A stretch of DNA of 64,000 bases from Aurantiochytrium sp. KH105. Its lineage: Eukaryota; Sar; Bigyra; Thraustochytrida; Thraustochytriidae. The notes beneath the pieces were generated by a model. That model had not been told where the DNA came from and did not search any database. It was given only the letters and a program-made list of their open reading frames with translations. This document shows, in pieces, positions 1,476 through 63,484 of this stretch. The translations under genes were made by a program, and so were the position numbers. The stretch is from positions 186,001-250,000 of the forward strand of contig BGKB01000078.1 of the NCBI GenBank assembly GCA_003116975.1. The letters are read 5' to 3'. Numbering within the stretch: the first letter of the stretch is position 1; every line of letters begins with the position of its first letter.

Positions 1476-2855
1476 ATTTCCGCCAGCAGCAGTCGCGGCA
1501 GCAGCAGCAGCAGCAGCAGCGTCACCGCAAGCTCGCGTGTTAGCAAGATGTCTCGGCGAGCTCGCGCCGCTTCCTTACCGCGACGGTTAGCCAAGCTATC
1601 CTGCTGATAGCGAGAGCGAGGGAGATGATGACAGAGAGAGAAAACAATGGTGGAAAGAGAAGGATAGTAGGCCTATAGACAAAGCAAGTTGGAGCATTTG
1701 ACGACCAGCCTTTTTTGTTGAGATTGGTGGGTTGGTTTACCATTGTCCACTTCGGTAGTGCCGGCAAGTCGCTTCTGCTGCCGATAATGCACTTGCGGCC
1801 GGCTAGCTGCGCTGCTGGCTGGCGAGTCTCTGCGGAGTTCGTCCCAAAGCACTGCCTGCAGCAGTAGGCAGCAGTCTTTGAATTTTCCTCGGGGAGCAAG
1901 GTCGCCGCCGCGCGGGACGCAAAAGGTAAAACCCCAACACTGGCCGCAAGAACCCGGTCTCGATCCTCTCCACGGTCCGCTCTTCTTCTGCTCCGTCCGC
2001 CGTCCGCGCGCGCTAGGGCAGTCACGCCAGGCCAGACCAGGCCACGCCAGGCCACGCCGCGCTGCCGCGTCCGCCAAGGCCGCAAGGCCGAGGACCGGTC
2101 GGTCGGCGTTGCCCTTTTCTTGTCTAGTATTTTCCAAGGGGTGTTTGTCCAGTCTGCTTGCTACGTATAGCTGCTATAGCTTGCTGCCAGTGAGGTGGCC
2201 CTCCTCGCGCTGCGCACACACGCGTGAGCGTGAGGGGGGCGCTACCGCGCCGCGCCGGCCAGCATTGGCGTCACAGCGAGGTGACTCGGAAGGCCAAGAG
2301 GTGAAGAAGGCAGACACGGCGCTTGCGCACACGCATCCTTGATTTCGGGCTCGCCTCGCCTCGCCTCGCCTCCACGCGGGGGCGAGCAAGCAAGCAAGCA
2401 AGCAGGCAGGAATACTTGTGGTCGCAGTCGTAGTCAAGGTGGGTGGGTTGGTGGGTAGTAGTAGGGTAGGGAATAGAAAAAGAGGCAAGGGGCAGACAGA
2501 CACAAGCAGCAAGACGAACAAGTATAAGTGGGCGGCACAGGCTGGAGATACATACGGGCAAAGACGCTTCGTACCGCCGCTCGCGCCCGCCCGCTCCGCG
2601 CCGGCGCGCAGAGACTGGCGGCCCTGGCTAGCCTACAGCCTCGGCGAGCGCAAGGATCAGTGCGCCTCCTTCGTGGGACACACACGCGCGCCATAGCGCC
2701 GCCGCCTGGGCGGCAGGGAGACAGACTGTAGAAATAGCCTCGTCGCCTCGTTGTCGTGACGAGCCAGCTCCTCTGCTAGGTAATCTTGACAAGCGAACAA
2801 GCGCGCAGCAAGCATCAGGGTGCGGGAGGTCCGGTCGGCCGTCGAGGCAGCAAAG
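1476..2855. promoter_or_regulatory. Divergent intergenic region with simple repeats
   Basis: This is a 1.4 kb gap between two divergent start codons. It holds an Ala/Gln-type GCA repeat near 1497-1520, a CGCCT run at about 2350-2372 followed by a CAAG run at about 2384-2405, and one copy of the CGCAAGTG element at 1783-1798. No convincing coding frame is present; the short ORFs are low-complexity Ala/Arg/Cys-rich shadows. Confidence 0.6.
1783..1798 (-). promoter_or_regulatory. CGCAAGTG-N3-WAT element
   Basis: On the minus strand this reads CCGCAAGTGCATTATC, matching the element CGCAAGTG-N3-WAT-N-CGC found repeatedly in other intergenic regions of this window. It sits about 310 bases upstream of the ATG at 1475 and points towards that gene. 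Its function is inferred from recurrence and position only. Confidence 0.5.
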
Positions 2856-5420
2856 ATGCGGCGTCGCGGAAGCACCGAGAATGGCGGAAGCTTTTGGTCC
2901 ACGGGCGATTCTTCACAGACAGATCTCTCCGCGTTTGAAGATGGCGAAGAATCCGAAAGGATCGACAACGCGCTCCACGCGCGCATGCTCAAGTCGAGGA
3001 ACAGCAGCGAAGAGGACGCCACCATGTCCGGGGAGTACTGGAAAGAGAAGAAAGAATCAAGCGAAAGCGACGAGAAAAGCATTCCGCGCGCCAAGCGCAT
3101 CGCCGCCAGAAAGATTGTAGCCCCGCAACACGACGTGGGCATCACCCTCGATGGCCAACGCGTCTTTGACGTGCCTGCCACGCACTCCCTTTCCCACTCG
3201 CTCTTTCGCAAATGGTACACACTGCCGTCGCTCCTGGCGTATCTAGGGTTCCTCACGTCGATTTTTTGCACGGTCGTGTGGTCCAATCAGCCCTTCATCA
3301 TCCTCGTCGTGGCTTGTATGTGGCGACTCATGTACAACGGTGGCGTGGGCTGGTTGCTGCGCAAGGAAAGCAAGGAGCATTTCCTCACGCAGTGGATCAC
3401 CCGCGTGCGGCGTCGGCCCTTTTCTCCGGAAAACACCTTTTGGAGCGGCGTGCTCCGCAGCACCATGCCCAACGATCGCGAGGTCATCAACAATGCCCGG
3501 CTCCCGCCTTCTTTCGCGGCCTGGGTCGCCTTTCGCAGCTTTGTCATTATGGTCGAAAGCAACGACGTGCTTGCATTCACACTCATGGCCGTGAGCTACG
3601 GCTTCCATGAACGCCCCACCTTTGATTGGCCCCTGCTCAGCCCGTTAATCGATCTCGTCGGCGTCGTCCTCGTCATTGCAAGCCTGGGCGGAAAAGTTGC
3701 AGCCATGGCGCACGCGGGCGATCCGGCGTGGTTCTGGTTCGATTTTTTCTTTCTGCGCACAGGCACGATGGAGCTCACGTACGCCGGCGTCTTTGCACTC
3801 TTTCCGCATCCCATGTACACGGTCGGGTACGGCTGGATGTATGGCTGCGCCCTGTTGTCGCGTAGCTACCAGGTCCTTGCCTGTGCGATGGGCTTCCACT
3901 TTTCGCAGCTCATCTTTCTCATCCTGGTAGAAGCGCCCCACGTGGACGAGCTCTATGGCAGCGGAAATTCGCTCTTGCACGCCGAGATGGAGGCCATGCG
4001 CGACGGCATCATTCACGACGTCACCCTCGTCGGAACTTCTTACATTTACTTGCTGCGCCACTTTGATATGTATCGCGCTGCCGATGTGCTCTTGATCCTC
4101 TCCATTTGCCTCTTTATCAGCTCCGTCTGGGTGGGCTCGTTTCCGGGCGGCCCCTTTGAGGGTCAAATGCCCATGATTCTCATTGCCGTGGGAGTCCGAC
4201 TGGCCTCGGCCCTCATCAAGGGACTTATCCTCATTGGCCAGGAAAAGGACAAACGCTGGACGCGACACTACCAGGCTGCCGGGCGTTCCCGCGTCCAGGC
4301 ATTCGAGAATTGGAAGCGCATTTACCTTCTCTTTGGCGGGCTTGAGACGTCGAGCTTCATCATGTGCGCGATCCGCTTCGTACACGTGCCAGACAATGTA
4401 CTGACTGCAGGGGTTGCCTGCCAAGTCATGCTGGGGGTCTTCCTCGTTGTCGTGGCGCTTTGGGCACATGGGGCCTGCTATCAGGTCATGGGGGACTTTG
4501 GAACATTCTACGGCGACTTCTTCTTGCCACCAGCCCGTCTGAACAGCGCTGCCGGCCCTGCGCCCACGTACGAGGGCCTCTACCGCTACCTCAACAACCC
4601 CGACACATATCTGGGTCACCTCTGGATGTACGGGCTCGCTGTCCTCGCGTCTTCCCCCGAAGTTCTCGCGGTTGCCATTCTGGGTCACGGTATCATGATT
4701 GCCTTCCTCAATGTCATCGAAAAGCCGCACTTGCGTGCAGTCTACAAACAGCAGGTACGCACCGAATCTACAGCGTTGGGCCGCGCCATTGTCTCCAAGG
4801 TAAGCGAGATCCGTCGCAGCGAGACAGCCTTGTTCCTTGCGAATTGGGTCAAACATCCCGTCGAGACGGGCGCCCTCGCCCCGAGCTCGGAACAGCTTGC
4901 CGAAGCCATGTGCGACACAATGGACCTTGGCGACAATTCGGTCGTGGTTGAGCTTGGACCTGGAACCGGCCCCTTTACCGCGGTTATCCTCAAGCGTCTC
5001 AGTACATCCAAGAACGCCACATATTTGGCCTTTGAGCTGTCCAAGGAGTTTGTCGACCGTCTGTGTGACCGTTTTCCTGACCACAAGGACGCATTCTTGC
5101 TCGAATCTGCAGAACGGATCGTTGACGCCCTGCACGAGCGCGGCCTCCACCACGCCGATACGGTCATCAGCGGACTTCCCTGGGCGATTTTCCCAAAGAG
5201 CTTGCAGCGAAAGATTCTCTTGGCCGTCTACGCCTCGTTGCGGCCGGGCGGGCGGTTCTGCACATTTGCCTACCTCCAAGGTCTCGTCTTGCCTGCGGGG
5301 CAGAATTTTAAGGCACTGCTTGACGAGACCTTTGAAAAAGTCGAGCGCTCCAACATTGTCTGGGCGAACCTACCACCTGCCTTCGTGTACCGATGCGAGA
5401 AACAGACTGGCTCGCGCTAA
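2856..5420 (+). CDS. Phosphatidylethanolamine N-methyltransferase (CHO2-like) fused to PmtA-like methyltransferase
   Basis: The 854-residue protein should methylate phosphatidylethanolamine towards phosphatidylcholine in the ER membrane using SAM. The frame is open from a GTG at 2820, but the first ATG is at 2856 (context GCAAAGATGC), so I start there. After an acidic, Ser-rich N-terminus come many hydrophobic segments with two CHO2-type repeats. The first carries FPHPMYTVGYGWMYG and VEAPHVDELYG; the second carries NNPDTYLGHLWMYG and IEKPHLRAVY. From about residue 640 there is a second, soluble class I methyltransferase with the SAM motif VVELGPGTGP (about residue 697) and SGLPWAIFP plus PPAFVYRC, which resemble bacterial PmtA. 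CHO2 from yeast normally lacks this C-terminal catalytic domain. The fusion could supply successive methylations in one chain. Family assignment is firm; the combined activity is inferred. Confidence 0.9.
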   Translation: MRRRGSTENGGSFWSTGDSSQTDLSAFEDGEESERIDNALHARMLKSRNSSEEDATMSGEYWKEKKESSESDEKSIPRAKRIAARKIVAPQHDVGITLDGQRVFDVPATHSLSHSLFRKWYTLPSLLAYLGFLTSIFCTVVWSNQPFIILVVACMWRLMYNGGVGWLLRKESKEHFLTQWITRVRRRPFSPENTFWSGVLRSTMPNDREVINNARLPPSFAAWVAFRSFVIMVESNDVLAFTLMAVSYGFHERPTFDWPLLSPLIDLVGVVLVIASLGGKVAAMAHAGDPAWFWFDFFFLRTGTMELTYAGVFALFPHPMYTVGYGWMYGCALLSRSYQVLACAMGFHFSQLIFLILVEAPHVDELYGSGNSLLHAEMEAMRDGIIHDVTLVGTSYIYLLRHFDMYRAADVLLILSICLFISSVWVGSFPGGPFEGQMPMILIAVGVRLASALIKGLILIGQEKDKRWTRHYQAAGRSRVQAFENWKRIYLLFGGLETSSFIMCAIRFVHVPDNVLTAGVACQVMLGVFLVVVALWAHGACYQVMGDFGTFYGDFFLPPARLNSAAGPAPTYEGLYRYLNNPDTYLGHLWMYGLAVLASSPEVLAVAILGHGIMIAFLNVIEKPHLRAVYKQQVRTESTALGRAIVSKVSEIRRSETALFLANWVKHPVETGALAPSSEQLAEAMCDTMDLGDNSVVVELGPGTGPFTAVILKRLSTSKNATYLAFELSKEFVDRLCDRFPDHKDAFLLESAERIVDALHERGLHHADTVISGLPWAIFPKSLQRKILLAVYASLRPGGRFCTFAYLQGLVLPAGQNFKALLDETFEKVERSNIVWANLPPAFVYRCEKQTGSR

Positions 5421-9050: not shown

Positions 9051-9486
9051 GTTGCCTTGATCGCTCGCTACACGATCGCTTTCGTTCTTCTTCTTATTGT
9101 CCTTCTTCTTCTTCTTCAAGATTTGACGGGCAGCGCAGCGTGTTGCGGCGTGGTGCCGATCTAGTGCACTATCATAGGCTAGTCTAGAATACAAAGGAAG
9201 ATCACGAAGACACCTTGACTCAAAATGGATTTATATATAGATGTGTTGGTACGAACCGCTTTCTCGCATGCGGCATGAACCAAATTTGGCCTCTGTCATG
9301 TTCAACGAGGCAGCGCTGCGTAGCGTTGCACGTGACTGTGCGATGCTGATTCTTTTAATTTAGGAATGCATGTATGCATTGATGGATGGAAGGAGGAAGG
9401 AAGGAAGAATGCAAAAGAAGAGACTGACGGACGCTTGAGGACCTGAGCTTGCTTTTGGAGAATCTGGTAACTTTTTTGTGGCCGAC
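9051..9486. other. Convergent 3' intergenic region
   Basis: The 3' ends of the bestrophin gene (+) and Mpo1-like gene (-) face each other here. A CTT-rich stretch (9085-9120), an AT-rich segment near 9225-9245 and a GGAA run near 9385-9406 are visible. No gene or RNA feature is seen. Confidence 0.4.
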
Positions 9487-10140: not shown

Positions 10141-10731
10141 CTTGCTGTTCGTCCGGTTCCTTTGCTCTTTTCACTCCTTCTCGCGTCCGCGGCGCGGCGC
10201 GGCGTGGCGTGCGCGGCGTGGCGTGGCGCGGCGTGGCAGGGCGCTAGCACCTTTGGTGCGCGAATTGGGCTCGGGGTTGCAGCGAGTACTCGGTGAACGC
10301 GATCTGCCCGTCGTGGTGTCACGTCCCGACTTGTAGTGAGGAGCCTCTTTCCTATCCTCTGATCCTAGTGACTACTACTGCCGCCTCATAGTATGTAATG
10401 CGAGGAGAGCACCCAGCGCAAGCTGGCTATGGTTTCTTGCGACATTGGCTCGCGCACACGTATTGACGTACGAAAGGGCGCGGTAAGCGGGAGGCCTTGC
10501 AGAAAGCGCGACAGCGACATCAAGAGGGAAGGATGTCTCGTCTTCGCTTTCAAGCCACAACAATCTGCCACTGCGCGAGAGTGCTGATATTCCACTTGTC
10601 GTTGATTTGCTGTGTTTGTTGCCGTTACGGAATCGAAGGCCCGGACTGCCGCCAGAGCTGGCCGCCGCAACAAGTTGGGGGCTTTCTGGCGAACATCTGT
10701 CTGTCTGAATGACTGCCTGCCTGCCTGCCAG

Positions 10732-10764
<33 letters not shown>

Positions 10765-10873
10765 ACGTGCAGCGGGGGCGCGGGAGCAAGCTGCCATTGT
10801 CTGGATTCGAGATCGCCTCGTGCGCAGGCGAGTAGCAGAAGAGAACGAGCGAGCGCCAAATTGAAGTCTCCCA
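10141..10873. promoter_or_regulatory. Divergent intergenic region with CTGC repeat
   Basis: This lies between divergent starts at 10140 and 10874. It has a GGCGT/GGCGC-type run at about 10190-10237 and a (CTGC)n tract at about 10711-10762. A degenerate element, CGCAAGCTGGCTATGG, begins at 10417 and keeps the spacing of the CGCAAGTG-N3-WAT motif. No coding frame is convincing; the Ala/Cys/Gly-rich ORFs are repeat translations. Confidence 0.5.
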
Positions 10874-11306: not shown

Positions 11307-14207
11307 TCACAACACTTTAACTTGCTGGCCGGGCGCACTCTCACTACTTGCCGCCTCGACAACGCCGACAATGTTTGCTTGCGGATAGCCGCTCTCGCGT
11401 AGCGCACTGACAAGATCTTGTGCCTTAGCAGACGGCACCGATATAAGAAGACCGCCAGAAGTTTGCGGATCATAGAGAAGCGGATACAATGCAGGATGAG
11501 CAGCCGCCGCTTCTGCATGATTGGCAATCGCTCGACGCAAACGCGTGTTCTGCGGTTGCAGTGACGAAAAGATGCCCGCCTCGACGCACTCTGCGGCACC
11601 CTCGAGCATGGGAACGTCCTCGGCTTGTACAGTAGCCATCAGGCTTGGGTCACTGGCTTGCATCATCTCGACCAGGTGGCCAATGAGACCAAAGCCCGTG
11701 ATATCCGTGCACGCAGTTGCATCATGGTCGCGCGCCAGCAGCGCCGCGTCCTTGTTCGACACTAACATGCTCTTGATGGCGCCCTCGACCCAGGCCCCTT
11801 TGGCCAAAACGCGCATATTCGCAGCGAAAAGCGTGCCTGTGCCCACAGGCTTGGTGACAATGAGCGCATCGCCAGCAAGAACGCCCCCCTTGGTGAGAAT
11901 GCGCTGTCCAGGCTGAACGACGCCACTAACCGAAAGTCCAAGAGCAAGATCCTTGCCTTCGCACGAGTGGCCCCCGACGAGAGCGCAATTGCTGTCCCGA
12001 AGAGCTGTGTTTGCGCCCGCCATGAGCTGCGTGAGCGTGCCCTCCACGACCCTTTCTGCCGCAAAGGGAACAACGGCAATCGCCATTGCGGTTACGGCCT
12101 CGGCGCACATGGCATGGCAGTCACTAAGCGCATGATTGGCCGCAATTTGGCCAAAGATATAGGGGTCGTCCACAAAAGAGCGGAAAAAGTCGACCGTCTG
12201 CACAACTTTGGGGGCATCATCATGCGCCGAGTCAAATTGAACGACGGCACAATCGTCTGGATGGTCAAGACCGACTTCAACCTCGGCCCGTGTGGGCGGA
12301 TTGAGATTCTGCACAACCCGATCGAGAACAGACTTGCCAACCTTGGCTCCGCAGCCGCCGCATCGCATGAGAGAAGCCTGAGTCAAGGCCTCGAGGCTCT
12401 GATTCTCCTCGGCGCCGTCTCCAGAGCCGCCATTGTGGCTTTCACCGGCCATGATTGGCAGCTGGGTGGTAAATCCTGCCATCCATTTGCGATCAATGTA
12501 GTCCTTCATTTTCCATAGCCACTTGCCCTCGAGGGCAATCTCGCCCCGAGAGGCAACGCAGTAAGGACGCCCAGTCCCGATGAGCCCAAGAAAGGATTTT
12601 TGAGGAACATAGTCCTCGAGCGTCTCGGGAGAAGCCGAGGCGGGAAGACTCAGGTTCCGAACGGCGCGGCGCAGATTGGCCGCCAGGGGAGGTCCCTGAC
12701 GTACGGCAAAGACGCCAGCCTTGGGACGCGGGTACTCGAGCATGTTGGCGCAGTCGCCAGCTGCAAAGACGTTGGGCGTCGACTCGCTCTCCAAGGTTTG
12801 TTTGACTCGAACAAAGCCGCCGTTATCGACAGCCAAGCCAGATTCTCCCATCCAGTCTTGCGTACGAGCGCTCGTGCACCAGATGCACTCGTCAACATTG
12901 ACAATGCGCCCATCGGCGGCGCGGAGACGGCTTTCCTCAATGCCTACCACCTCAAAGTTGTAGACGACGCTCACACCGCGCTCCTCGAGGATGCGTGCAA
13001 ACTTTTTCTGTACGGCGCGGCTGTGCGAGGGACACACTACTTTTTTATTGCTCAAGAGCACGAACTTGATTTTGAAGTGCTGTGAAGAGAGCCCCTCGAG
13101 GCGATACTGCATCGAGAGCGCGAGCTCGACGCCGCCTGCGCCTGCGCCGACCACGCCAATCGTGAGCTCGTCAACCTTGGCTGAGCCTGACTCTGCCCCG
13201 GCTCCTCCTTGTGCTTGTGCTTGTGCTTGTGCTTCATCATCATCTTCTTCTTCTTTCTGCTCCTCGCTTGCCTGAACACGGGACTCGATGGAGCGCACGA
13301 GGGCGTCCCAGCGCTCAGAAAACTGCCAGATCGGCTTGACCGGCGTTGCCACAAGGCTGGCATCGGCGTGGGACAGGGCGCTGTCCTTGATCTTCGGAGA
13401 GGACCCAATGTCGATGGACAAGACGTCGTAGCGAATGGGGGGCCGCTCCGGGTCGTCGACGTGCACGAGTTTCTGATCGAGATCGATGGAGGTCGCCGAG
13501 GCGATCACGAGCCGCACGCCTCCGAACTGGCAGAGCCGCACGAGGTCGATGTGGCACTCCTCCCTTTCGTACTGGCCGGCGATGTGCCCTGGCAGCATCC
13601 CCGAGTACGGCGTGTCCACCTGCGGCGTGATGAGGGTCACGGCTAGCCCGGGCTCGGGCTTCATGCCCATGTTCTTGACCACGAACGCGTGTGCGTGCCC
13701 GCCGCCCACCAGCACGAGGTCGCGGCTCACGGGGCCCGCGCCGTTCGCCGCCGCGCCCATCATCGTCCCGGCGCCCCTCGAGGCCGCCGCCTGCGACCTC
13801 AGCGCGGCCGCGGGCGAGAACACGCGCATCGGCCCTTCCGCCGCCGCCGCCGCCGCCGCCGCCGCCTCCGCCGCGCCCGCCTCGTCCGCCGCGCCCCGGC
13901 CGTCGCCAAGCGCGTCTGCCGCGCGCAGCAGGCCCAGCCCCAGCGCGGCCGCCGGCCAGCGGCCCGAAAAGAGCGCCGCCATTCCGCCGAGCGCGGCGCC
14001 CAGCCCCTTGGCGGCGGCCAGCGCGGGCGCGGCGCGCGCCTCGCGCTCGCGGGCGGCCAGCGCGGCGCGCATGCGCGCGTCCAGCTCCGCGCCGCCGCCC
14101 GCGCCCGCGCGCGCCGCCTCGCAGGCCCAGTCCAGCCAGAACAGGCTCAGCGGCGCGCGCCGCAGCCCCCGCGCCAGCCACGCCGCGCAGCTCCACGCCG
14201 CGCCCAT
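11307..14207 (-). CDS. selD: Pyridine nucleotide-disulfide oxidoreductase fused to selenide, water dikinase (SelD)
   Basis: The protein is 966 residues from the ATG at 14207. The first enzyme half (about residues 163-590) is an NDH-type FAD oxidoreductase: LVLVGGGHAHAF is the FAD dinucleotide-binding motif, VGAGAGGVELA the NAD-binding motif, and FAAGDCANM the second FAD motif. The second half is selenophosphate synthetase, which makes selenophosphate from selenide and ATP; MRCGGCGAKVGK holds C616 and C619, followed by HPDDCAVV and a GGHSCEGKDLALG block. The active-site position carries Cys, not selenocysteine. The same fusion is known from some bacteria and algae. The frame stays open to an ATG at 14807, but that extra 200 residues is Arg/Ala/Pro-rich and overlaps a GGAAGAGAAGA tract, so I treat it as upstream DNA. 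The N-terminal 160 residues are Ala-rich and poorly conserved. Confidence 0.88.
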   Translation of the reverse strand: MGAAWSCAAWLARGLRRAPLSLFWLDWACEAARAGAGGGAELDARMRAALAAREREARAAPALAAAKGLGAALGGMAALFSGRWPAAALGLGLLRAADALGDGRGAADEAGAAEAAAAAAAAAEGPMRVFSPAAALRSQAAASRGAGTMMGAAANGAGPVSRDLVLVGGGHAHAFVVKNMGMKPEPGLAVTLITPQVDTPYSGMLPGHIAGQYEREECHIDLVRLCQFGGVRLVIASATSIDLDQKLVHVDDPERPPIRYDVLSIDIGSSPKIKDSALSHADASLVATPVKPIWQFSERWDALVRSIESRVQASEEQKEEEDDDEAQAQAQAQGGAGAESGSAKVDELTIGVVGAGAGGVELALSMQYRLEGLSSQHFKIKFVLLSNKKVVCPSHSRAVQKKFARILEERGVSVVYNFEVVGIEESRLRAADGRIVNVDECIWCTSARTQDWMGESGLAVDNGGFVRVKQTLESESTPNVFAAGDCANMLEYPRPKAGVFAVRQGPPLAANLRRAVRNLSLPASASPETLEDYVPQKSFLGLIGTGRPYCVASRGEIALEGKWLWKMKDYIDRKWMAGFTTQLPIMAGESHNGGSGDGAEENQSLEALTQASLMRCGGCGAKVGKSVLDRVVQNLNPPTRAEVEVGLDHPDDCAVVQFDSAHDDAPKVVQTVDFFRSFVDDPYIFGQIAANHALSDCHAMCAEAVTAMAIAVVPFAAERVVEGTLTQLMAGANTALRDSNCALVGGHSCEGKDLALGLSVSGVVQPGQRILTKGGVLAGDALIVTKPVGTGTLFAANMRVLAKGAWVEGAIKSMLVSNKDAALLARDHDATACTDITGFGLIGHLVEMMQASDPSLMATVQAEDVPMLEGAAECVEAGIFSSLQPQNTRLRRAIANHAEAAAAHPALYPLLYDPQTSGGLLISVPSAKAQDLVSALRESGYPQANIVGVVEAASSESAPGQQVKVL

Positions 14208-15138
14208 GCCGCCCGCTCCTCGGCCGCCGCGCTGCGCAGGGCCGAGGCTCCGCGCCTTCGGGCTCTGCTCCGCCGCGCTCCGCCGCGCTCCGCCCGCTCC
14301 GCCCGCTCCGCCCGCTCTGCTCTGCGCGGGCGGGCCGCGGAGCGCAGCGACGGACGCGCGGATTTTGCAGAACGACGCGCGGATTTTTTTTGCAGAACCT
14401 GGCTGACGGCACGCCGCGGAAGGGAAGAGAAGAGAAGAGAAGAGAGAGGACAGCGGCCACGGCAGCCGGAGCGGAGAAGATTCCCGGCGGCTGGGCGCCC
14501 TTGGGCCCTGGCATGTGGCGCGCGGATCTGCAGACGGGAGGAGGGAGGCAGGGATCCGCCTGCGCCGGGCACGAGGAGCGCGGACGCGAGTCTGGGAGTC
14601 TGCGACGCGACAGCGAGGCGCGGCGGAAAAGGCGGAAGGTGGCGAGGAGGGGGGGTTCGAGGCGCGGCAGGAGGCTGGCTTGGCCTTGGGAGAGAGGAGA
14701 GGAACACGCGAGGCGGCGATCACACACGGGCTGCGCGCTGTCGATAATCGGCAGCCTGCAGCTGAACGGGGCTGGCCTCGGGGCAAGTGCGGCTGCGGGT
14801 TATCCATGCACGTCTCCTCCTTTCCGTTGGATGGGCATGACTGTGAGTGCTTCTACGCGCCTTTTTCATCATCAAACAAACACACGTGCATCTTTTAGGC
14901 CTGGCTGATCTTGATTAGCCAGAAATCACCAGCACATTCACAAGGTGCTTTTGCTGCGCTGTGCTTCGCAGCTTTATCTCCTAGCACAGCCAAGGCTCTC
15001 TTGCCGGAGTCCGTCGCGAGGCTTCCACCCACCACGGCCACCGTCACCGTCATCCACGATCTTGTCTTGACTGGCTGATTATAAATAAGGGCTTGGATTG
15101 CAAGTGCTTGGATCACCAAGACCTCATTCCCTGCCGAG
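14208..15138. promoter_or_regulatory. Divergent intergenic region (SelD fusion / TELO2)
   Basis: The probable start of the minus-strand SelD fusion and the TELO2 start at 15139 flank this region. It includes alternating GCTCCGCC repeats (about 14275-14320), an 8-base T run at 14383-14390 and an AGAGAAG repeat (about 14420-14450). The minus frame of the SelD gene remains open to 14807, so a longer N-terminus cannot be excluded. Confidence 0.45.
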
Positions 15139-18602: not shown

Positions 18603-19085
18603 CCTCGCGTCCCGGCAGGCCTGGCAGCCCGAGCAAGACCTTGGCGGCGCGTGCCGTCGTCTGCACTGCACCTCGCAGTTCTTTTCCCCCGCGGCGGGCG
18701 CGGCCTCGAGGCAGTCCTGGCGCCCGAAGAAGGCGGCTTGGTCGCCCGAGACTCGCGCGACCGCGATTCCGTGGCTGGCACGAGCCTTGCGTGCCCTGCA
18801 CGTCTGGCTGCCGCAGCCGCGTAGTGTGCGCGCAAGTGCAGAATCCGTGGCGGCCAAGTGGAGCCGCGGCCGATAGTCTGCTTACGCCGGGCGCATAACT
18901 CACTTGCGGCCTCGCGACGCCCAGGGCGACCCTTGCTTGTGCCGCCCCAAACATCCGACCTTGACGCGCCGATCGATCGCGCAGCTGCGACCCGCTGCTG
19001 CTGCCTGCAAAGGCGCGATTGAGGCTCGCAAGCGGGAAGGGGCAGACCGCGCGGCTCGCGTGGAGACTTCGAGCAGGGAGAGAAC
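18603..19085. promoter_or_regulatory. Divergent promoter of DPH4 and sideroflexin
   Basis: This 483-base gap separates two divergent ATGs and holds an opposed pair of CGCAAGTG elements (18831 plus strand, 18892-18910 minus strand), spaced about 45 bases apart near its middle. No TATA box is apparent. Confidence 0.6.
18831..18910. promoter_or_regulatory. Opposed pair of CGCAAGTG-N3-WAT elements
   Basis: Plus strand: CGCAAGTGCAGAATCCG from 18831. Minus strand: GCCGCAAGTGAGTTATGCGC from 18910 down to 18891. Both keep the 3-base spacer and the AT-rich WAT block. The distances to the ATGs are 229 bases (DPH4) and 176 bases (sideroflexin), as expected for a core promoter or transcription-factor site. 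Confidence 0.55.
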
Positions 19086-24738: not shown

Positions 24739-26784
24739 CTAGATGAAGAGCTCTGTCCGGTACTTGTCGACCCGCCGTGGCTTGTGGCGCTGGTTGAACT
24801 CGACCGCCTTCTTGAGAGCCGCCGCAAGGGCATCACGCTGGATGACAGAACAAGCCTGCAGATCAAGGGTTCGAGCTTGCGTCTCGAGACTGAAACACAA
24901 GCTGCGGACCTTGCGGGCATCCTTGGTGCTACGACGAATCGTCGGCGTCATCTCACCGATGCGAATGCCAACCACCTGTTTGAGTTCAAGACCACGATGG
25001 GAGCCGTCATACTGAGAGCTCTCCCACGCCAAATGCGTCAGAGCGCTGTTGATCCACATTTTGCGCTGGTGAGGACGTCCTTCACGACCAAACTTGGTTA
25101 CTGAAAAGCCTGCAAGAATACGGATATTATCCTTGCCAATTTCCTCCTCTGCCAACTCGCGCACCTCGACATGCGTAAGCGCAACGCGGTTGGTGCTGAC
25201 AGCGCCACTGTTGACACGACTTGACGTAAGCGCGGAGCCGCCAGTGCTGGCGCGAGGGTTGCTACTCTGAGCAGACCGTGAAGCAGCGGCAGCGGCGCGC
25301 GCGTCCTCCTCCTCTTGCAGTCTGCGCGCGAGCTTTTCATCCTCGGACTCTTGTTCCTTTTTCTTGCGGCGGTCTTCCTTCCTCTTGGCCTTGCGTGCGG
25401 CCTTGCGTTCCTCCTCTTCGCGGATTGCTGCTGCGTCTGCGCTGTCTGCAGTGTTGAAAACGGCGAGAGGATCTTCGGCTCCGTAGCCACTGGACGCCCA
25501 CGGCAGATCGTCGCCAAAGGCAGGCGTCCCGAACGGATTCGCAATGGGGGCATTGAGGTCCGAATCATTGTCAAAGAGCACCCAGCCATCGTCGAGTCCA
25601 CCGTTGACGGGGGGCGCCGACATTTGCTGTGACATGGGTCTCGAGGCGCCGTAGTCTGGCTGCTGCTGGTAGCCGCTCGCGTACGTAGAGGGCTGATGTT
25701 GCTGCTGCTGGCCATAACCTGGTGCGGCCCCGTACGGGTTTTGGTTGGTATCATAACCATAAGGGTTTCCCTCGTATGCTGCGGGAGGCTGCTGCTGTTG
25801 ATAATAGGCGCTATAGTCAGGTTGCGGTTGCTCCTGATGTGAGTAGCCTCCTTGGCCGCCATAGGTATCCATCGGTGGATGCTGCATTTGGGGCTGCTGT
25901 TGATGCTGCTGCTGCTGCATCATATTGAGAGGCATCGTGGTCCACGAGCTTGCGAAGCGCGCTCTCGCGTCAGCTTCGTGCTCCCTGAGAACAACGAAAT
26001 GATTATCGATAAGCGCAAGGCATTCTGGATGGCGAAGCGTAAAGTCGAGAACAGGACCATGCACAGACTGCCAGTACGTGGGCCATCCAAAGCCCGTAAT
26101 GGCCCGGATGTGGTCTTCCAGCTCCTGCACCGTTGCCGGCTGAGCACCCGTCTGCATCGCGTGATCGTAGTGACGTCGAAGGAACCCAATGGTGATGCCA
26201 AGAAGCTGAGGGTCCTCCTCCACACGATTGCGGGCCGCGGGCGCTGGTTGCTGCTGCTGCTGTGGTGTACCGTACTGAGGAAGTGCTTCGGTGATGCTCG
26301 TCGGCGCGGAGGCCTCGACCTGGTCAAAGGGATTTGAGGTGGCCGCTGGCGCTGGGGCTGGCGCTGGAGCTGCGGCAGCCTTTTCCTCCGTGGTGCCTAC
26401 CTTCATGCGTTGCATGCGCTCAATATTGCGTTTGTTGAACTCTTGAAGCATGCTATCCGACATGGTCGGCACGACGATCGATTGTTCCTTCATGATGGAG
26501 GCCGTCACATTCGCGCGGATCTGGTCGGAACCGAAGTTACCTTGCCAATCTTTCTTGGCCGCGTTCTGCGCAGAGCTCGGGGGCGGGGGTGGGGCGCCTC
26601 GCCCGTGTTGCTGTTGCTGGGACGCCTGCTGTTGCGGCTGCTGTTGCTGCTGCACATGCTGCTGCTGCTGCTGCTGCTGCGGCTGCTGCGGCTGCTGCTG
26701 CTGCTGCGGCTGTTGGTACCCGGTGTACGGCGTCTGTCCGGCGGCGGCCTGCGGCGCGCCGGGCTCTCCGAAGGGATTGCTCAT
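24739..26784 (-). CDS. PolyQ-rich protein with C-terminal PH-like domain
   Basis: The protein is 681 residues. An N-terminal Gln/Pro-rich stretch with long Q runs (about residues 20-70) is followed by KKDWQGNFGSDQIRANVTAS and a folded segment at about 195-285 (LLGITIGFLRRHYDHAM, GFGWPTYWQSVHGP). A second Gln/Tyr/Pro-rich low-complexity region follows, then a Lys/Glu helix (EEEERKAARKAKRKEDRRKK). The C-terminal 115 residues look like a PH-type domain (GFSVTKFGREGRPHQRKMWI, LELKQVVGIRIGE, CSVIQRDALAAALKKA). The NPF motifs SNPFGEP, SNPFDQ and ANPFGTP would bind EH domains, which points to endocytosis or membrane trafficking (inference). I recognise no specific orthologue. Confidence 0.7.
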   Translation of the reverse strand: MSNPFGEPGAPQAAAGQTPYTGYQQPQQQQQPQQPQQQQQQQHVQQQQQPQQQASQQQQHGRGAPPPPPSSAQNAAKKDWQGNFGSDQIRANVTASIMKEQSIVVPTMSDSMLQEFNKRNIERMQRMKVGTTEEKAAAAPAPAPAPAATSNPFDQVEASAPTSITEALPQYGTPQQQQQPAPAARNRVEEDPQLLGITIGFLRRHYDHAMQTGAQPATVQELEDHIRAITGFGWPTYWQSVHGPVLDFTLRHPECLALIDNHFVVLREHEADARARFASSWTTMPLNMMQQQQHQQQPQMQHPPMDTYGGQGGYSHQEQPQPDYSAYYQQQQPPAAYEGNPYGYDTNQNPYGAAPGYGQQQQHQPSTYASGYQQQPDYGASRPMSQQMSAPPVNGGLDDGWVLFDNDSDLNAPIANPFGTPAFGDDLPWASSGYGAEDPLAVFNTADSADAAAIREEEERKAARKAKRKEDRRKKKEQESEDEKLARRLQEEEDARAAAAASRSAQSSNPRASTGGSALTSSRVNSGAVSTNRVALTHVEVRELAEEEIGKDNIRILAGFSVTKFGREGRPHQRKMWINSALTHLAWESSQYDGSHRGLELKQVVGIRIGEMTPTIRRSTKDARKVRSLCFSLETQARTLDLQACSVIQRDALAAALKKAVEFNQRHKPRRVDKYRTELFI

Positions 26785-27863
26785 GGCTTCGGCCGGCGAC
26801 TCCGTCTCCTGCTGCTGCCACTGCTGCTGCTGCTGCTCCCACTGCCGCCGCCGCTGCTGCTCTCGCGCGCGCGCGTCGCGTCGGGTCCCTTCTCGGCGCT
26901 TCCCGGCACCCGCTTCGTCTCAATTGCGCCGGCCTCGCCGCGCCGCGCCGCTCGCCGCGCCGCTCGCCGCGCCTGGCCGCGCCTGCCGCGCCTGCGCCGC
27001 CTCCCTCTCTCCGCCGCTGCGCCGCGCGGGTGCGCGCGTCTCGGAGGCGCTCGGATCGCGCGGTCGCCGGCCGAGCGATCGATCGATCGATCGATGAATC
27101 GATGATCGACTTGTGCTTTCTCTCTTTGCTGCTCGCCTCCCTGCCCTCCTGCTTTCTTTCCCGCTTCGCTTGCGTTTTTATTCTTCTATTTTTATTTATT
27201 CCTATTCGGCCAGACAGCCAGACAGCCGGCCGACCGCAGCTTGTTCTTTTCCTTTTGCTGCCGCCAAATTCAAGTTCTCCGTGCGCAGGCGAACGCGCCT
27301 TCCTTCCTGACGGGCAACTGTTTCCTAGTTTCCTAGTCTCCTTTCTAAACATGGCGATCATGGCGTGTGTAGTTCTAGGTCGACGTTTTCTCTCTTGGAG
27401 TTCGTTTCGCCTTCTAATCCTGGTTGCTTCATTCCCGTCCTTCTTCGGCTGCGGCTGGACCTGCAGCTGCTGCGACAGCCACATGCCGGCAGCTGTGGCT
27501 GCGGCCCCACCACAACGCCAACGCCAACAGCGAACTAGGACTCGGACTCCAAGGACTCGGAGCTAGCTCGTACGAGGCGGTCAGCTAGCCTGGCTGGCTG
27601 CACAAACCTCGCATTTGCACACCGCGCCGCAAGTGAACTCTGCGCGTATTCGCCACTTGCGCAGCCGCCCGGTGCACTTGGTTGCACATGAAGCCTTGCG
27701 CCGCAAGACTGCGGCATCGTTAGGTCTCTTTTTATGGAGAGGCCCGCCAGCCTGACTTGGAGCCTCTGAGAGCCTGAGACCGTTGGGCCGCTTTCTTCTT
27801 CTTGTGATATGGTGAGTTCCCAACGCCAGACGCGAGAGCAGAGCAGAGCAGAGCAGAGCAGAA
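26785..27863. promoter_or_regulatory. Divergent intergenic region with CGCAAGTG pair
   Basis: This lies between divergent ATGs at 26784 and 27864. It contains CTGC/CTGCC repeats close to 26784, GCGCCG runs (26935-26985), a GATC run at about 27078-27105, the CGCAAGTG pair at 27628-27662 and an AGAGC repeat (about 27836-27860) that abuts the ATG. The long shadow ORFs on both strands are Ala/Arg/Leu-only translations. Confidence 0.55.
27628..27662. promoter_or_regulatory. Overlapping inverted CGCAAGTG elements
   Basis: Plus strand: CGCAAGTGAACTCTGCGCG from 27628, with an imperfect WAT block. Minus strand: GCGCAAGTGGCGAATACGCG from 27662. The two 3' halves share the central GCGCG. The pair lies about 200 bases upstream of the EGF-like gene start. 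Confidence 0.5.
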
Positions 27864-35186: not shown

Positions 35187-35218
<32 letters not shown>

Positions 35219-48342: not shown

Positions 48343-48392
48343 AGTCTGTAAAGAATATGAACCGCGTGTTATTTTGAGGAGAGATCTTGCTC

Positions 48393-48431
<39 letters not shown>

Positions 48432-54852: not shown

Positions 54853-54982
54853 GCGCTTTGCCGCACTTGCGCGCCGCCGCGCAAGTGGGCTATCCGCGCT
54901 TTGCCGCACTTGCGCCGCCGGCCGCCGGCCGCAGCGCGCGGCGCGCATTGTCCACTTGCGGCCGCGGGAGCTCCACTTGCGC
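54853..54982. promoter_or_regulatory. Cluster of five CGCAAGTG-type elements
   Basis: Two minus-strand copies read CGCAAGTGCGGCAAAGCGC (54853-54871 and 54896-54914). One plus copy reads CGCAAGTGGGCTATCCGCG (54880-54898) and partly overlaps the second. A further minus copy is at 54942-54960 (CGCAAGTGGACAATGCGCG). A partial minus copy (GCGCGCAAGTGGAG) lies around 54970-54982. The spacing between cores is between about 20 and 50 bases. Confidence 0.55.
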
Positions 54983-55559
54983 GCGCGCTTCGCGCACTGT
55001 GTGCGCGGCGCCGCCAAGGCGCAACCAGCGCGGCGAGTAACTGGCAGCGAGGGAGACGCAGATCTGATCGATCCCTCGCGCCCGCGCCGCGAGACCGCCG
55101 CCCCGCCTCGCGCGGGGACCCTCGCGCGCCGCTGCGAGGCCGCGGCTCACGCGCGCGGGCGGCGATCCTCGGCGCGCGCGTGCGGCGGGCGCGCGCGAGG
55201 CGGGGCGGAGGGAGCGGGAGGCGAGGGCGCGGAGGCGAGGCTGGCTATGGCTGGCTGGCGCGAGCATGCTTTCTTTCGTTCTTTCTTTCTTTCTTTCTTT
55301 CTTTTTTTCTTTCTTTCTTTCCACCGCGGGGCCTCGGGCCGCGGCAGGAGAGCGCGCGGTACGGCCGTGCCGTGCGGCAGGAGAGCGCGCGGCGGGCGGG
55401 CGCGAGGGAGAGAAGCAGCGCACGCCCGCCTGGCCGTCCGCCCGTCCGCCCGTCCGCCTGCCCGCCCGCCGCGCACCCGGAGCGCCTGCACGCCGCGGCC
55501 GCGCCTGGAGGGCGGCCGGCCGGGCGTCTTGCCTGGCCTCCCTCGCGCGCACCCGCCCC

Positions 55560-55614
55560 GGCAAGTGCGTTATCGCGCCGCGCAAGTGTAGAATGCGCGC
55601 ATTCCGCACTTGCG
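55560..55614. promoter_or_regulatory. Cluster of three CGCAAGTG-type elements
   Basis: GGCAAGTGCGTTATCGCGC begins at 55560, CGCAAGTGTAGAATGCGCG at 55581 and, on the minus strand, CGCAAGTGCGGAATGCGCG runs from 55614 to 55596. The last two overlap at their GCGCG ends as an inverted repeat. Confidence 0.55.
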
Positions 55615-57181: not shown

Positions 57182-58879
57182 ATGCAGGCGTGCGTACGCG
57201 GCAGACTCGCAAGCAACCTGTCGAGTCGCCTCGAGTGCCGTGCTGCACAGAGCCTCGGCCTCGGCCTCGGTCGCGACCATGGACCTAATCGACTCACACA
57301 CTGGGTTTGCTCTGCGCGCCAACTCTCCGTGACCGTGCGACAGGGAAGGTTCGGGGGCTGGACGGACGAGCCCGCTAGCGAGGTTGACGCGTCAAAGGAC
57401 GCCTCGCAATTTAGATCCAGAATCAAAGTGGGCAGACACACGCTCGTCGCCGATGAACCAGAAAACGTTGGCGGCCTCGACGAGGGCCCCTCTCCGTACG
57501 ACCTTCTCCTCTCCTCACTCGGAGCATGTACCGCCATGACGCTGCGCATGTACGCCGACAGGAAAAAGCTCCCGCTCGAGGGCGTCAGCGTCGAGCTCGA
57601 TCACGCCAAAATCTACGTCAAGGACTGCGAAACGTGCACTGACGACCAAATCCACCTGGCCGAGGCCAAGAGCAAAAACGCCAAGATCGACCAAATCAGT
57701 CGTCTCATTACCCTGCACGGTGACCAGCTCACACAGAAAGACCGCGAGAACTTGCTTCGCATCGCCAACCTTTGCCCTGTGCACAAGACTTTGGAATCAA
57801 CGAGTGTCGTCACCACGGAGCTCAAGGAAGAGACTGATACGCAAAAGGCAGGCGAGAAAATGGCACATCTCTTGACCCACATCCCTGCGCGATCAAGTGT
57901 TCTCGTCCCCGGAGAGGACGGCCCAGACTCCATGACGGTGCGACGCCTCTTGCCATTTCGCAGGAAACGCTTCGTGGGGCCCATCGTCTTTCTTGACCAC
58001 TTTGGGCCCATCGATCTCGCCAAGCACCGATCGATCGACGTCGGGCCACATCCGCACATCGGGCTCTCCACAATCACATATCTCTTTCATGGCGCAATCA
58101 TCCACCGCGACAGCACAGGTGCCGAGCAGACCATCTTCCCTGGCGAGGTCAACATGATGGTGGCCGGCCGAGGCGTAACGCACAGTGAGCGCGGCGACGA
58201 GGCAGTTTCGCAAGTGCGTGGCAAGCACGCGCTCGAGGGCATCCAGCTTTGGGCGGCACTTCCCAAAGAGATGGAGGCTACCGACCCGGCCTTCTTCCAC
58301 AGCGCATCTACGATTGACGCCGGCGAGGCTCTCCGCGCGCAAAAAGGCGCGCAGGCCCGTCTCGTCTTTGGTGAAATTGCCGGAATTTCTGCCGCAGACT
58401 CGGTCCCCGTACACTGGCCCATGTTCATGCTCGATCTCACCATGCCGGAGAAAAGTTCTGTGCACATCCCCGTGGCCGCCGGTCATGAGGTCTGCGTTTA
58501 CACGGTGCACGGCCGCGTCGAGGCAGGAAGCGAACGCTCTGCGCTCGATGTTGGCGAAAGCGCAGTGTACAATCACCAAATTTCTGATGAGGCGGGCACA
58601 GAGGAGCCACCTACGTGGGTAGTGGTTCAAGCGCCCGAGAACGCACGGGTCGTCGTCTTTGGAGGTCTTCCGCTGCCCGAGCCGCGACACATTTTCTGGA
58701 ACTTTGTGAGCTCGGATCGTGACCAAGTTGCGCAAGCAGCTTCGGCGTGGCGTCAGCTCGATCGTAGCGTTTTCCCACCCGTCGTCAATGAGGAAAATAT
58801 GGATAACATTCATTTGCCAGAGGTGTCCTCTACTGTGCCACGCCAGGACAAGGGCCATCACGAGCAGCAGCAGCAGTAA
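57182..58879 (+). CDS. OsmC-like / pirin fusion protein
   Basis: The protein is 565 residues. The first 50 residues have Arg, Ser and Leu without acid residues, consistent with a mitochondrial presequence. OsmC-like peroxiredoxin (about 75-220) follows: SPYDLLLSSLGACTAMT with C116 and RIANLCPVHKTLE with C198, the pair that reduces organic peroxides. Pirin (about 240-530) is fused in frame: RRKRFVGPIVFLDHFGPIDL, HPHIGLSTITYLFHGAIIHR and the Gly/His/Glu residues that hold iron in the N-terminal cupin. It continues in MVAGRGVTHSER and a C-terminal cupin, then a polyQ tail. OsmC detoxifies peroxides and pirin is an iron redox sensor or dioxygenase. Their fusion suggests a peroxide/iron redox role (inferred). 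ATG at 57182 is first in frame. Confidence 0.88.
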   Translation: MQACVRGRLASNLSSRLECRAAQSLGLGLGRDHGPNRLTHWVCSARQLSVTVRQGRFGGWTDEPASEVDASKDASQFRSRIKVGRHTLVADEPENVGGLDEGPSPYDLLLSSLGACTAMTLRMYADRKKLPLEGVSVELDHAKIYVKDCETCTDDQIHLAEAKSKNAKIDQISRLITLHGDQLTQKDRENLLRIANLCPVHKTLESTSVVTTELKEETDTQKAGEKMAHLLTHIPARSSVLVPGEDGPDSMTVRRLLPFRRKRFVGPIVFLDHFGPIDLAKHRSIDVGPHPHIGLSTITYLFHGAIIHRDSTGAEQTIFPGEVNMMVAGRGVTHSERGDEAVSQVRGKHALEGIQLWAALPKEMEATDPAFFHSASTIDAGEALRAQKGAQARLVFGEIAGISAADSVPVHWPMFMLDLTMPEKSSVHIPVAAGHEVCVYTVHGRVEAGSERSALDVGESAVYNHQISDEAGTEEPPTWVVVQAPENARVVVFGGLPLPEPRHIFWNFVSSDRDQVAQAASAWRQLDRSVFPPVVNEENMDNIHLPEVSSTVPRQDKGHHEQQQQ

Positions 58880-59355
58880 ACTTTGTAATACCCATCCCAA
58901 GTCTTTTATGGAAAGGCAAGTGACTTTCATGTATCTTTGGCCCACGCCGACATGTTGGCACTGACTTGGCGCGAGTTTTTTTTTTTTTAATCCCAAAGGA
59001 TGGGCTGCCTCAACCAGGCCTATGAGAATTAGAGCGCAGCGGTGAATCTTGGGACATGTTCTACCTGGTTGTAACCAGCCTCTCGGCTATCCACGCATAT
59101 AGCAGACAGTCGATCAGACATCAAGCCAGCCAAGGAAGTAAAAGGGGAGCAAAATGAGTTGCAGTTACAGGCGCATTGATGTGAAGGAGGAGATAAAATG
59201 GGAAGAAAAAAGGAAGAAGAAGAAGCAAAGAAAAGAAAGAGGGCACAGGGGAGCGAAGAAAGAAATGTAGATCCGGGGTCAACGTAATTTTTAATGAAGG
59301 ACAAATAGGAAAGGAAACGTAATGAAATGAGACGAATCCAACCAACCTTCATTGT
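58880..59355. other. Convergent 3' intergenic region
   Basis: This lies between the convergent OsmC-pirin (+) and Zn2Cys6 (-) genes. It has a T run at about 58977-58988 and an AAGAAG purine run at about 59200-59240. No gene is seen. Confidence 0.4.
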
Positions 59356-61464: not shown

Positions 61465-62891
61465 CTCTCCTCGAGCGCGCTCGCACGCACAGGCCGTAAG
61501 AGAAGAAAGGCCAGCGCGCACTCGCCCGCGGCCACGCGCGCCGCTCGCTCTCTCGCCTGCCCCCGCGGGCGAAGGCGCCCACGAGGCCGCGAGCGAAGCC
61601 CGCTGCGGCTGCGCCGAGACGCGTCCTCCGCGCTCCGCCTCCGCGCGCGCTGCCTGCCTCGCGCTCGCGCTCGCGCTCGCGCTCGAGCCTGAGCTTGCGG
61701 GTCTGACAGCCTCGGAGCAGCCCTCTAAATCGGGGGCCCCGCGCGAAAGCCGGAGAAAGCGGGGAGAAGCGGAATCAGGTGCCCGTCGAGGCCCCCGAAC
61801 CACCCGCCGGGCCAATCGGGTGCCCCGGCGCTCCCGCGCGCGGCGGCGGGTCCGGGCGGGCGGGCGAGAGGCGAGGCCTGCGCGCGGCGCGGCGCGGCGG
61901 AGAGGCGGCGAGGCGAGGCCCTGCGCGCGGCGGCTTCGCTTCTGGCTGCGCGAGGCCGCGCCTCCAGGGCAGGCTCGGCGGGCGCGTGAGGGCTGGCGCG
62001 GGAGTTGAAATTGAAATGAAATGGAAAGAAGCGAGCGAGAAAAGCTCGCTTGATCCGCTTCCCCGCGCGCGGGGCTGCGCCAGGCGCGACGGGAGGACCC
62101 GCGCGAGCGAGCGAGCGAGCGTGCGAGCGTGCGCGCGTGCGTGCGTGCGTGCGTGCGTACGCGCGCGCGCGCGTGCGTGCGATCGAACGAGCGCGCGGGA
62201 GGGCGTGCTCGTCGCGCGCGGTCTGCAGTACGTCGTGTCTGTCTGATTCTTTGACTGCTTGCTTTGCTTGTTGCGGCCTCTGCCTCCCAACGACCACACT
62301 CTTCCGCGCTATACGCCACTTGCGGCGCCGTTTGTTCTACTTGCGGGCGCACGCTCACAGTGGTCGCTGTGGCAGGAACACAGCTAACTTGTGATCTGAC
62401 TTGACTTACACGACACGTGTGATCGATTTGAGTGCGGGTGCAAGCGCAAGAAGACCTGCCCTGGCTGCCTGTCTGCCTGGCTGCCCCGCGGCTTCTTCTG
62501 TGCGGGTCCGAGGTAGTAGAATCGGTCGGGCGCAGTCGCTCGCAAGCCTGGAAACCAAAAAGGGGAGACGAGACGAGAGGAAAGTAACAATGACCACGAA
62601 ATAAATAAATCCAAGACGGCGTGCAGGCGAGTCAAGTTCCTCCCTCATCACATCGTTCATTTTTTCTTCTTTTTCTTTTTGCAACGAGGGTGGGCGTCTC
62701 ACTCGTTTAGACCATTTCATTTGGACACTTGATGGGTTTAGTCTATCTAACGCCTAGAACTTCCTATCAAATTGCGGTCGCAGCGCCACGTGCAAGAGAT
62801 AGGCCGTGACATTGCGGTAAATTTTTGTGCAGTTAACTTTGAAAATTTATCCGTTGAAGACCCGTTTATTTTTTGGTGTGAGCATTGAAGG
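61465..62891. promoter_or_regulatory. GC-rich 5' region of the Zn2Cys6 gene
   Basis: This region contains a GCGAGCGAGCG run and a GCGTGCGTGC run (about 62100-62180), and two minus-strand CGCAAGTG elements at 62305-62324 and 62327-62345. The minus frame of the Zn2Cys6 gene stays open into it. No other coding region is credible. Confidence 0.45.
62305..62345 (-). promoter_or_regulatory. Two tandem CGCAAGTG elements, minus orientation
   Basis: Read on the minus strand: CGCAAGTAGAACAAACGGC (from 62345) and CGCAAGTGGCGTATAGCGC (from 62324), 21 bases apart. Both point towards the Zn2Cys6 gene, whose ATG is about 850 bases away. Confidence 0.5.
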
Positions 62892-63188
62892 TCATTGATG
62901 AGACATCTGCTTTTGCGATTGGTCTATTTGGGTTTGAAATAGCACATTGGAAGAAATGTTATCAAGGAAGAGTTCAGCAAGACCGATCTGGGCAGCTAAA
63001 CGCTTCTGCGGGATCGCACTGCTGCCCGCCTCAGGTGTCAATGCCATGTCAAGCTCAGTTTCACCGTGCCCAGCTGCAAGCCCTGCCATCATCATCATCA
63101 CGTAAATACCACAGTCAAACCCGTTTCTTTGAGANCACCCAACGAGCTCAAGGTGTGCGTCAAAGTGGTCTATCTTCACAAAAGCGGG
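62892..63188 (-). CDS. Ulp1/C48-type cysteine protease fragment
   Basis: About 99 codons without an ATG at the left of the frame; the 5' end is not visible. It reads KIDHFDAHLELVG, then SQRNGFDCGIYVMMMM, then a helical tail to a stop at 62892. DHFD and the QRNGFDCGIYV box carry the Asp, Gln and Cys typical of SUMO-protease (Ulp1/SENP) catalytic domains. A single ambiguous base, N at 63135, lies inside it. The fragment may be the last exon of a gene whose other exons lie elsewhere, a pseudogene, or the protease part of a mobile element, since Ulp1-like proteases are carried by several. An AATAG before the frame could be a splice acceptor. It is not resolvable here. Confidence 0.4.
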   Translation of the reverse strand, partial: PAFVKIDHFDAHLELVGXSQRNGFDCGIYVMMMMAGLAAGHGETELDMALTPEAGSSAIPQKRLAAQIGLAELFLDNISSNVLFQTQIDQSQKQMSHQ

Positions 63189-63401
63189 CTATTGACCGTA
63201 GTGTTTCCTCTAGAGGCAGTGTCCCCCAGGCTGGTTTTCCCTACAGCTCGAAGCTATTCGCGTACCCCCCTTCCATGAAGTGGTCCCCATAGCTTACTCC
63301 GTTCCTGGGGGTGCCAGGGGAGGACCTGCGGCGGATCCTGGTGGGTCTGCCTCGGCGCGGGATTTCGCCGGCGCAGGCGGCTCGCGCAACTGCGGCGCCG
63401 G

Positions 63402-63484
63402 CGCAAGTGGGGAATGCCCGGCCGCAAGCGCGGTATCGGCGGCGGCGGAAGTGCGCAGAGCCGCGCGCAAGTAGGCTAAACGGC
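63402..63484 (+). promoter_or_regulatory. Three CGCAAGTG-type elements, plus orientation
   Basis: CGCAAGTGGGGAATGCCCG from 63402, CGCAAGCGCGGTATCGGCG from 63423 and CGCAAGTAGGCTAAACGGC from 63466, all on the plus strand. They lie about 330-415 bases before the possible start codon at 63815. Confidence 0.5.

Follow-up and report, generated by a model that had tools for sequence, protein, structure and literature searches.

The window analysed here, the whole of C78:186001-250000 (64 kb; positions below are those of the window unless a contig is named), belongs to a eukaryotic genome whose 367 contigs total 76.03 Mb. It carries an element each copy of which consists of the 8-bp box CGCAAGTG, three further bases and a short A/T block. 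Gene positions come from a simple hidden-Markov model of coding sequence, for which long open frames served as the training set. Sites of the element precede an EGF-like gene, a Zn2Cys6 gene and, in one divergent promoter, a sideroflexin gene and a DnaJ-domain segment; further sites separate a CW-zinc-finger gene from an OsmC-pirin gene (Table 1). The site at 18831 is divergent from the minus-strand coding segment 18220-18557, in which the DnaJ domain was recognised by eye.

An earlier note on this DNA had listed 17 positions for the element, and a CGCAAGTG-like box was indeed found within 2 bp of every one: 13 boxes were exact and 4 had one mismatch (55560, 62345, 63423 and 63466). One exact box, at 54974-54981(-), was absent from that list. 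The degenerate CGCAAGCT copies proposed at 10417 and 42320 were not supported, because each has two box mismatches and lies outside every phased cluster. The bare word CGCAAGTG occurred 22 times in the window against 4.6 expected, a count reached by 0 of 100 shuffles, and the full 18-bp consensus CGCAAGTGNNNWAWNCGC occurred 6 times exactly against 0.01 expected. Across the genome, the 18-bp consensus was present in 392 copies, compared with 3 for the reversed pattern. The window is richer than average: at the genomic density of 392 in 76 Mb, its 64 kb should contain about 0.33 exact copies, and it has 6. The anatomy of the element was read from 90 distinct direct-repeat copies, drawn from the first 100 listed pairs on contigs C1-C13. 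The A/T block stood where the earlier note had placed it (positions 11-13, counted from 0) in 46 of the 90, and several others had CAAA or CTTT one base later. The three bases between CGCAAGTG and the A/T block were nearly always G, C or A. The CGC tail that had closed the proposed consensus proved dispensable, the NSGC version giving 552 genomic matches against 3 for its reverse.

The arrangement of the copies, which the earlier note had missed, was analysed by searching the genome for pairs of exact boxes with a free gap of 1-31 bases, so that direct periods of 9-39 were allowed. Direct pairs numbered 731 against 2 for the reversed word, and 93 of the first 100 listed had a period of 19-23. 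There were 140 convergent pairs (0 reversed), with 48 of the 50 distinct listed ones at a total length of 33-36, and 149 divergent pairs (0 reversed), with 37 of the 50 listed at 23-27; 10 of the other 13 fell at 44-47, that is, one further lattice step. Among the listed pairs the mean distance between box centres was 21.38 for direct, 25.79 for convergent and 16.78 for divergent pairs. Averaged, the convergent and divergent values give 21.29, compared with 21.38 for direct pairs, which fits a unit whose centre lies 2.25 bp 3' of the box centre. Wider gaps of 32-62 gave 467 pairs against 9 reversed, many of them outer members of triples already counted as direct pairs; of 100 listed, 78 were spaced by 40-46 (mean 42.6), and 18 of the remaining 22 by 59-66. 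The DNA read in the analysis likewise gave somewhat scattered peaks near 21, 43 and 66. Because direct, convergent, divergent and second-step distances all fit one unit spacing, the units follow a two-helical-turn lattice of about 21.3 bp whatever their direction. Two direct pairs, at G000:C7:407334-407374 and C10:174719-174759, had a 33-bp period and AT-rich spacers, were alike to each other and unlike the array type, and possibly represent another element.

Coding and non-coding occurrences were counted in 264 kb of sampled DNA, 60% of it called coding, which comprised the window and twenty 10-kb loci picked for holding the motif, with both haplotypes counted. The core CGCAAGTGNNNWAW occurred 61 times, never in coding DNA, and its reverse 0 times. 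The bare 8-mer CGCAAGTG occurred 103 times, 12 of them coding, and the reversed 8-mer 10 times, 3 of them coding. The claim that the element lies outside genes thus holds for the core with its A/T block (0/61) and fails for the bare box (12/103). Equal density in coding DNA, which the earlier note had named as evidence that would speak against it, was not what the core displayed (0/61). The 61 core sites are not independent, since the loci were chosen by motif and haplotypes were counted twice; even with 30 sites, the chance of zero coding hits would be about 1e-12.

We also compared sites between haplotypes. Of ten contig pairs aligned, eight matched over kilobases at 89-96% identity and two were non-allelic; the kilobase alignments indicate that the assembly contains two diverged haplotypes, at those loci at least. 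Within eight haplotype pairs, 22 sites had a single difference in 242 fixed bases, compared with 7 in 66 bases of spacer, many of these sites having been selected for the motif on both haplotypes; non-coding DNA overall differed by 7.4% substitution. A cleaner test is given by 13 boxes in the eight pairs, because these had not been used for selection. They carried 2 changes, counting both substitutions and gaps, in 104 bases, where neighbouring non-coding DNA predicts 15.8 (P=2e-5), and 11 of the 13 were intact, against 53% of adjacent 8-mers. The boxes are under constraint. Pairs at about 89-96% identity, representing two haplotypes or parental genomes, include C1/C60, C6/C15, C33/C47, C82/C94, C124/C137 and C26/C252, and such pairs are a resource for footprinting. 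For the window itself, an 11-kb query gave no partner haplotype among the matches listed, from which the window was also absent.

The genes that carry arrays were examined by comparing with Pfam twenty proteins encoded beside the motif-chosen arrays or near them within the loci. Translation-related matches were to the eIF3e and the ribosomal L21e, S6e and S8 families. The others were importin-beta-like, cyclophilin, succinyl-CoA-ligase-like, AIM24, HDAC, RAB3GAP2, amino-acid transporter, RGS, FHA-RING and Tmpp129-jacalin; further neighbours, judged from the sequence by eye, appear to encode a CK2 beta subunit, Nup35- and Nup205-like proteins and a Sar1-like GTPase. Since three ribosomal families appeared among motif-chosen neighbours, ribosomal-protein (RP) genes were given a dedicated test, from which the genes that had prompted it (RPL21e, RPS6e and the S8-family gene) were kept out. 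The tested genes were located by protein search, blind to the motif, and 14 upstream regions were read. An array was scored where two boxes, neither with more than one mismatch, stood in lattice geometry no further than 900 bp from the protein match, or inside the 801 bp that had been read.

Among the first eleven RP genes, arrays were found at RPL11, RPS23, RPS18, RPS13, RPS11, RPL8, RPL10 and RPL23, the last with 16 boxes (at most one mismatch) in 1.2 kb. From a second set of ten, three were read (RPS15, RPS9 and RPL18) and all were positive. Arrays therefore lay upstream of 11 of 14 RP genes, compared with 1 of 24 unselected gene starts in the loci, the sole positive being RPL21e (Fisher P=3e-6); with the window gene starts added, of which 3 of 23 were positive, the comparison was with 4 of 47 (P=9e-7). 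A housekeeping query of eight proteins yielded five upstream regions (enolase, GAPDH, beta-tubulin, alpha-tubulin and actin), of which one was positive, GAPDH having a direct pair upstream; HSP70, calmodulin and PCNA had no match among the matches listed, only the best candidates being scored. Under a stricter rule, which allowed each pair no more than one mismatch in total, 7 of the first eleven RP genes and 1 of the five housekeeping genes were positive. The reversed word under the array rule gave 0 positives among 19 named upstream regions. Judged by coordinates only, RPS16 and RPL13A were positive, with listed sites 240-820 bp upstream, and 13 of 18 RP genes were positive when the four coordinate-judged ones were included, with RPL12, RPL19 and RPL27A outside the count. 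Upstream regions held 2 to 16 boxes. Six RP first exons could be recognised by the encoded N-terminus, and in five of them the array lay about 103-210 bp before the ATG (Table 1). A positional link to gene starts, which the earlier note had asked to be checked, is suggested for the start codons of these RP genes; the link with RP genes as such had escaped it. The window contains 0 recognised RP genes.

Table 1. Copies of the element in the window and arrays upstream of five RP genes
Feature	Position	Strand	Remarks
Single site CGCAAGTGCATTATCGGC	1780..1797	-	Divergent intergenic: minus gene 1-1481, plus PEMT-domain gene from about 2820
Site CGCAAGTGCAGAATCCGT	18831..18848	+	About 250 bp before sideroflexin ATG (19086)
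Exact site CGCAAGTGAGTTATGCGC	18891..18908	-	Shares sideroflexin/DnaJ divergent promoter with 18831 site
Convergent pair, half 1	27628..27645	+	About 220 bp before EGF-like gene ATG (27864)
Convergent pair, half 2, CGCAAGTGGCGAATACGC	27644..27661	-	Box starts 26 bp from half 1
Array unit 1, box 54864-54871	54854..54871	-	AT block one base off (GCAAA)
Array unit 2, CGCAAGTGGGCTATCCGC	54880..54897	+	
Array unit 3, box 54907-54914	54897..54914	-	
Array unit 4, CGCAAGTGGACAATGCGC	54943..54960	-	
Array unit 5, box 54974-54981	54964..54981	-	21 bp from unit 4, without AT block
Array unit GGCAAGTGCGTTATCGCG	55560..55577	+	Next unit 21 bp on
Array unit CGCAAGTGTAGAATGCGC	55581..55598	+	
Array unit CGCAAGTGCGGAATGCGC	55597..55614	-	Convergent with 55581 unit
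Unit CGCAAGTGGCGTATAGCG	62307..62324	-	About 850 bp before first in-frame ATG (61464) of Zn2Cys6 protein gene
Degenerate unit CGCAAGTA	62328..62345	-	21 bp from 62307..62324 unit
Unit CGCAAGTGGGGAATGCCC	63402..63419	+	Right-hand gene beyond window
Degenerate unit CGCAAGCGCGGTATCGGC	63423..63440	+	21 bp from 63402 unit
Degenerate unit CGCAAGTAGGCTAAACGG	63466..63483	+	43 bp (two lattice steps) from 63423 unit
RPL8 array	About 163-210 bp before ATG		First exon by eye
RPS18 array	About 114-180 bp before ATG		First exon by eye
RPS13 array	About 103-169 bp before ATG		First exon by eye
RPL10 array	About 135-178 bp before ATG		First exon by eye
RPS9 array	About 141-183 bp before ATG		First exon by eye

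Several other features of the window were observed. A TTTC-rich microsatellite at about 55270-55320 separates the arrays at 54.9 and 55.6 kb. A single open frame at 57182-58879 (+) encodes an OsmC-like domain and pirin domains, and another at 11307-14807 (-) encodes a pyridine nucleotide-disulphide oxidoreductase domain and AIR-synthase-related domains, the latter of the kind present in selenophosphate synthetase. Matches at about 72-95% identity on many other contigs were given by the short stretches 26606-26719 and 26926-27110, which may be dispersed repeat or low-complexity sequence.

The earlier note had read the element as a promoter or transcription-factor site. This reading is upheld in part, by the non-coding core, the upstream position, often between divergent genes, the conservation between haplotypes and the enrichment at RP genes; its proposed likeness to an E-box leaves the fixed outer bases, the AT block and the asymmetry unexplained. 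Given the constraint, the position and the set of targets, the best explanation is that the element is the binding site of one putative transcription factor, serving RP genes and a wider gene set as a phased cooperative switch, and we regard this as likely from the sequence. Each copy (CGCAAGTG, three bases and a short A/T block) would be an asymmetric site of about 14 bp for one sequence-specific protein. The lattice implies side-by-side binding, its two-turn pitch placing adjacent proteins on one face of the helix, where they may bind cooperatively and together recruit the transcription machinery, in whatever direction the individual sites are oriented. The arrays, in the promoters of most examined RP genes and of mixed others, often divergent, would then switch these genes together with growth. 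The binding protein, its cooperativity, activation over repression and the coupling to growth state are what we infer here.

Several observations weigh against this reading. The gene starts rest on a home-made gene finder, and 6 of the 20 neighbour proteins matched no Pfam family. The DNA upstream of RPS3, RPS5 and RPS14 was without an array, even though the first exon of RPS5 was recognised, and RPS4 and RPL5 were without exact pairs as judged by coordinates (C5 and C8 being listed in full). Set against only the five housekeeping genes, the RP genes show a weak difference (P=0.04). There is no obvious growth link for the window arrays at the EGF-like gene, the Zn2Cys6 gene and 54.9-55.6 kb, or for the arrays in the loci at RGS-, FHA-RING- and RAB3GAP2-domain genes. 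An array stands at GAPDH (locus L053) and a divergent pair (G000:C4:113319-113342) precedes one copy of actin by about 800 bp; the element is not confined to translation genes.

Other explanations were weighed against the same data. The inner hexamer CAAGTG conforms to CANNTG, and the element could be an E-box bound by a dimer of basic helix-loop-helix (bHLH) proteins. bHLH sites, however, consist of two near mirror-image halves with few fixed outer bases, whereas the site here is strongly asymmetric and the bases outside the hexamer are fixed. The A/T block is fixed between haplotypes while the spacer varies (1/242 against 7/66, in sites many of which were motif-selected), and mirror-image halves are contradicted by convergent and divergent box distances that lie 9 bp apart. 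We consider an E-box unlikely. A signal that positions nucleosomes or keeps DNA nucleosome-free without a dedicated protein would agree with AT blocks returning at about 21 bp, every two turns, in GC-rich promoters. Such a signal needs no fixed 8-base word, however, and here the word is better conserved than its surroundings, with the AT block at a fixed place in only about half of the direct-repeat copies (46/90), which makes this explanation very improbable.

Iteron arrays of about such a pitch are known, and the phasing of the repeated sites is iteron-like, which would suit an iteron of a replication origin or of chromosome maintenance that stands in promoters for a separate reason. Origins, however, are not expected to pick RP genes (11/14 against 1/24), nor to lie about 103-210 bp before RP start codons, and we give this reading very little weight. 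The copies are both tandem and dispersed, as those of a transposable element or a simple GC-rich tandem repeat would be, and the unfiltered flanks of 14 array regions share 33 GC-rich or simple-repeat pieces of up to 98 bp. Once the boxes were masked and low-complexity stretches filtered out, however, the same 14 regions (1 kb each) share one 53-bp repetitive alignment, spacers vary between units, orientations are mixed, the boxes are constrained, and the reversed word gave 0 pairs in 29 regions. The flanks of independent arrays being unrelated, the array as a transposon or simple repeat was rejected as extremely improbable. The binding site of a single factor is the reading that we retain. 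A bolder form of it, to which we would assign a low probability, is that the putative protein forms an orientation-indifferent ladder on DNA, with one molecule per two turns, and acts as a general regulatory factor and growth switch of the thraustochytrid translation programme, unlike known RP regulators.

The assignment to thraustochytrids draws on the PfaA model: separate genes, in two copies each, gave long matches to the first and to the last third of the model. The best match scored 930 bits, below the curated cut-off of 1010, and below-cut-off matches were also present in 11 of 14 control genomes. A split polyunsaturated fatty acid synthase of this type we take to point to a thraustochytrid, so the group is presumed. 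The means by which RP genes are co-regulated are known in few groups of eukaryotes, and the element would add a thraustochytrid-like protist; thraustochytrids are described in the literature as a group in industrial cultivation for omega-3 oils. The rigid, orientation-indifferent lattice would offer a natural test of how spacing affects cooperative binding, and the site appears specific enough for direct capture of its protein.

The element shares with E-box or bHLH sites the inner hexamer CAAGTG and differs from them in being longer and asymmetric, with an A/T block and arrays. Among the titles and abstract starts listed for text matches to CGCAAGTG or CACTTGCG in PubMed Central, none apparently concerned the motif, and no description was found among the matches listed from open-licence PubMed Central literature on promoter motifs and RP regulation in thraustochytrids and Labyrinthulomycetes. 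A Schizochytrium ATAC-seq paper names BPC, MYB, MYC and other families and, in the portion available, no such word (PMC10840233). The tandem pattern gave 0 matches in viral and prokaryotic contigs, a result that was expected and says nothing on lineage specificity.

The closest counterparts are two RP promoter systems. PhRiboBox is a 12-nt motif of Phytophthora RP promoters, at a median of 64 nt from the start codon; it occurs in either orientation, at 68 of 85 RP genes and at genes of translation, transcription and replication as well, and the Phytophthora RP element is reported to be unlike the fungal and metazoan ones (PMC4696810). By its description, it is similarly a stramenopile promoter element at most RP genes. 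It differs in distance (median 64 nt there against about 103-210 bp at five RP genes here), and neither arrays nor helical phasing are described for it in the sections seen (PMC4696810). Yeast RP promoters contain closely spaced pairs of asymmetric Rap1 (RPG-box) sites, located at about -220 or at -380 to -300 relative to the transcription start; the favoured gap is 2-6 bp, and most pairs are tandem, followed by head-to-head ones (PMC2585575, PMC3540036). Closely spaced asymmetric sites in RP promoters are thus common to both. The Rap1 site WACAYCCRTAACATY, however, is unrelated to the consensus CGCAAGTG-NNN-A/T block (a comparison by consensus, with no Rap1 matrix scan), and pairs there contrast with 2 to 16 boxes here, on a lattice obeyed by all three relative orientations. 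By analogy, the element may act like PhRiboBox or Rap1 sites, with orientation-independent phasing added.

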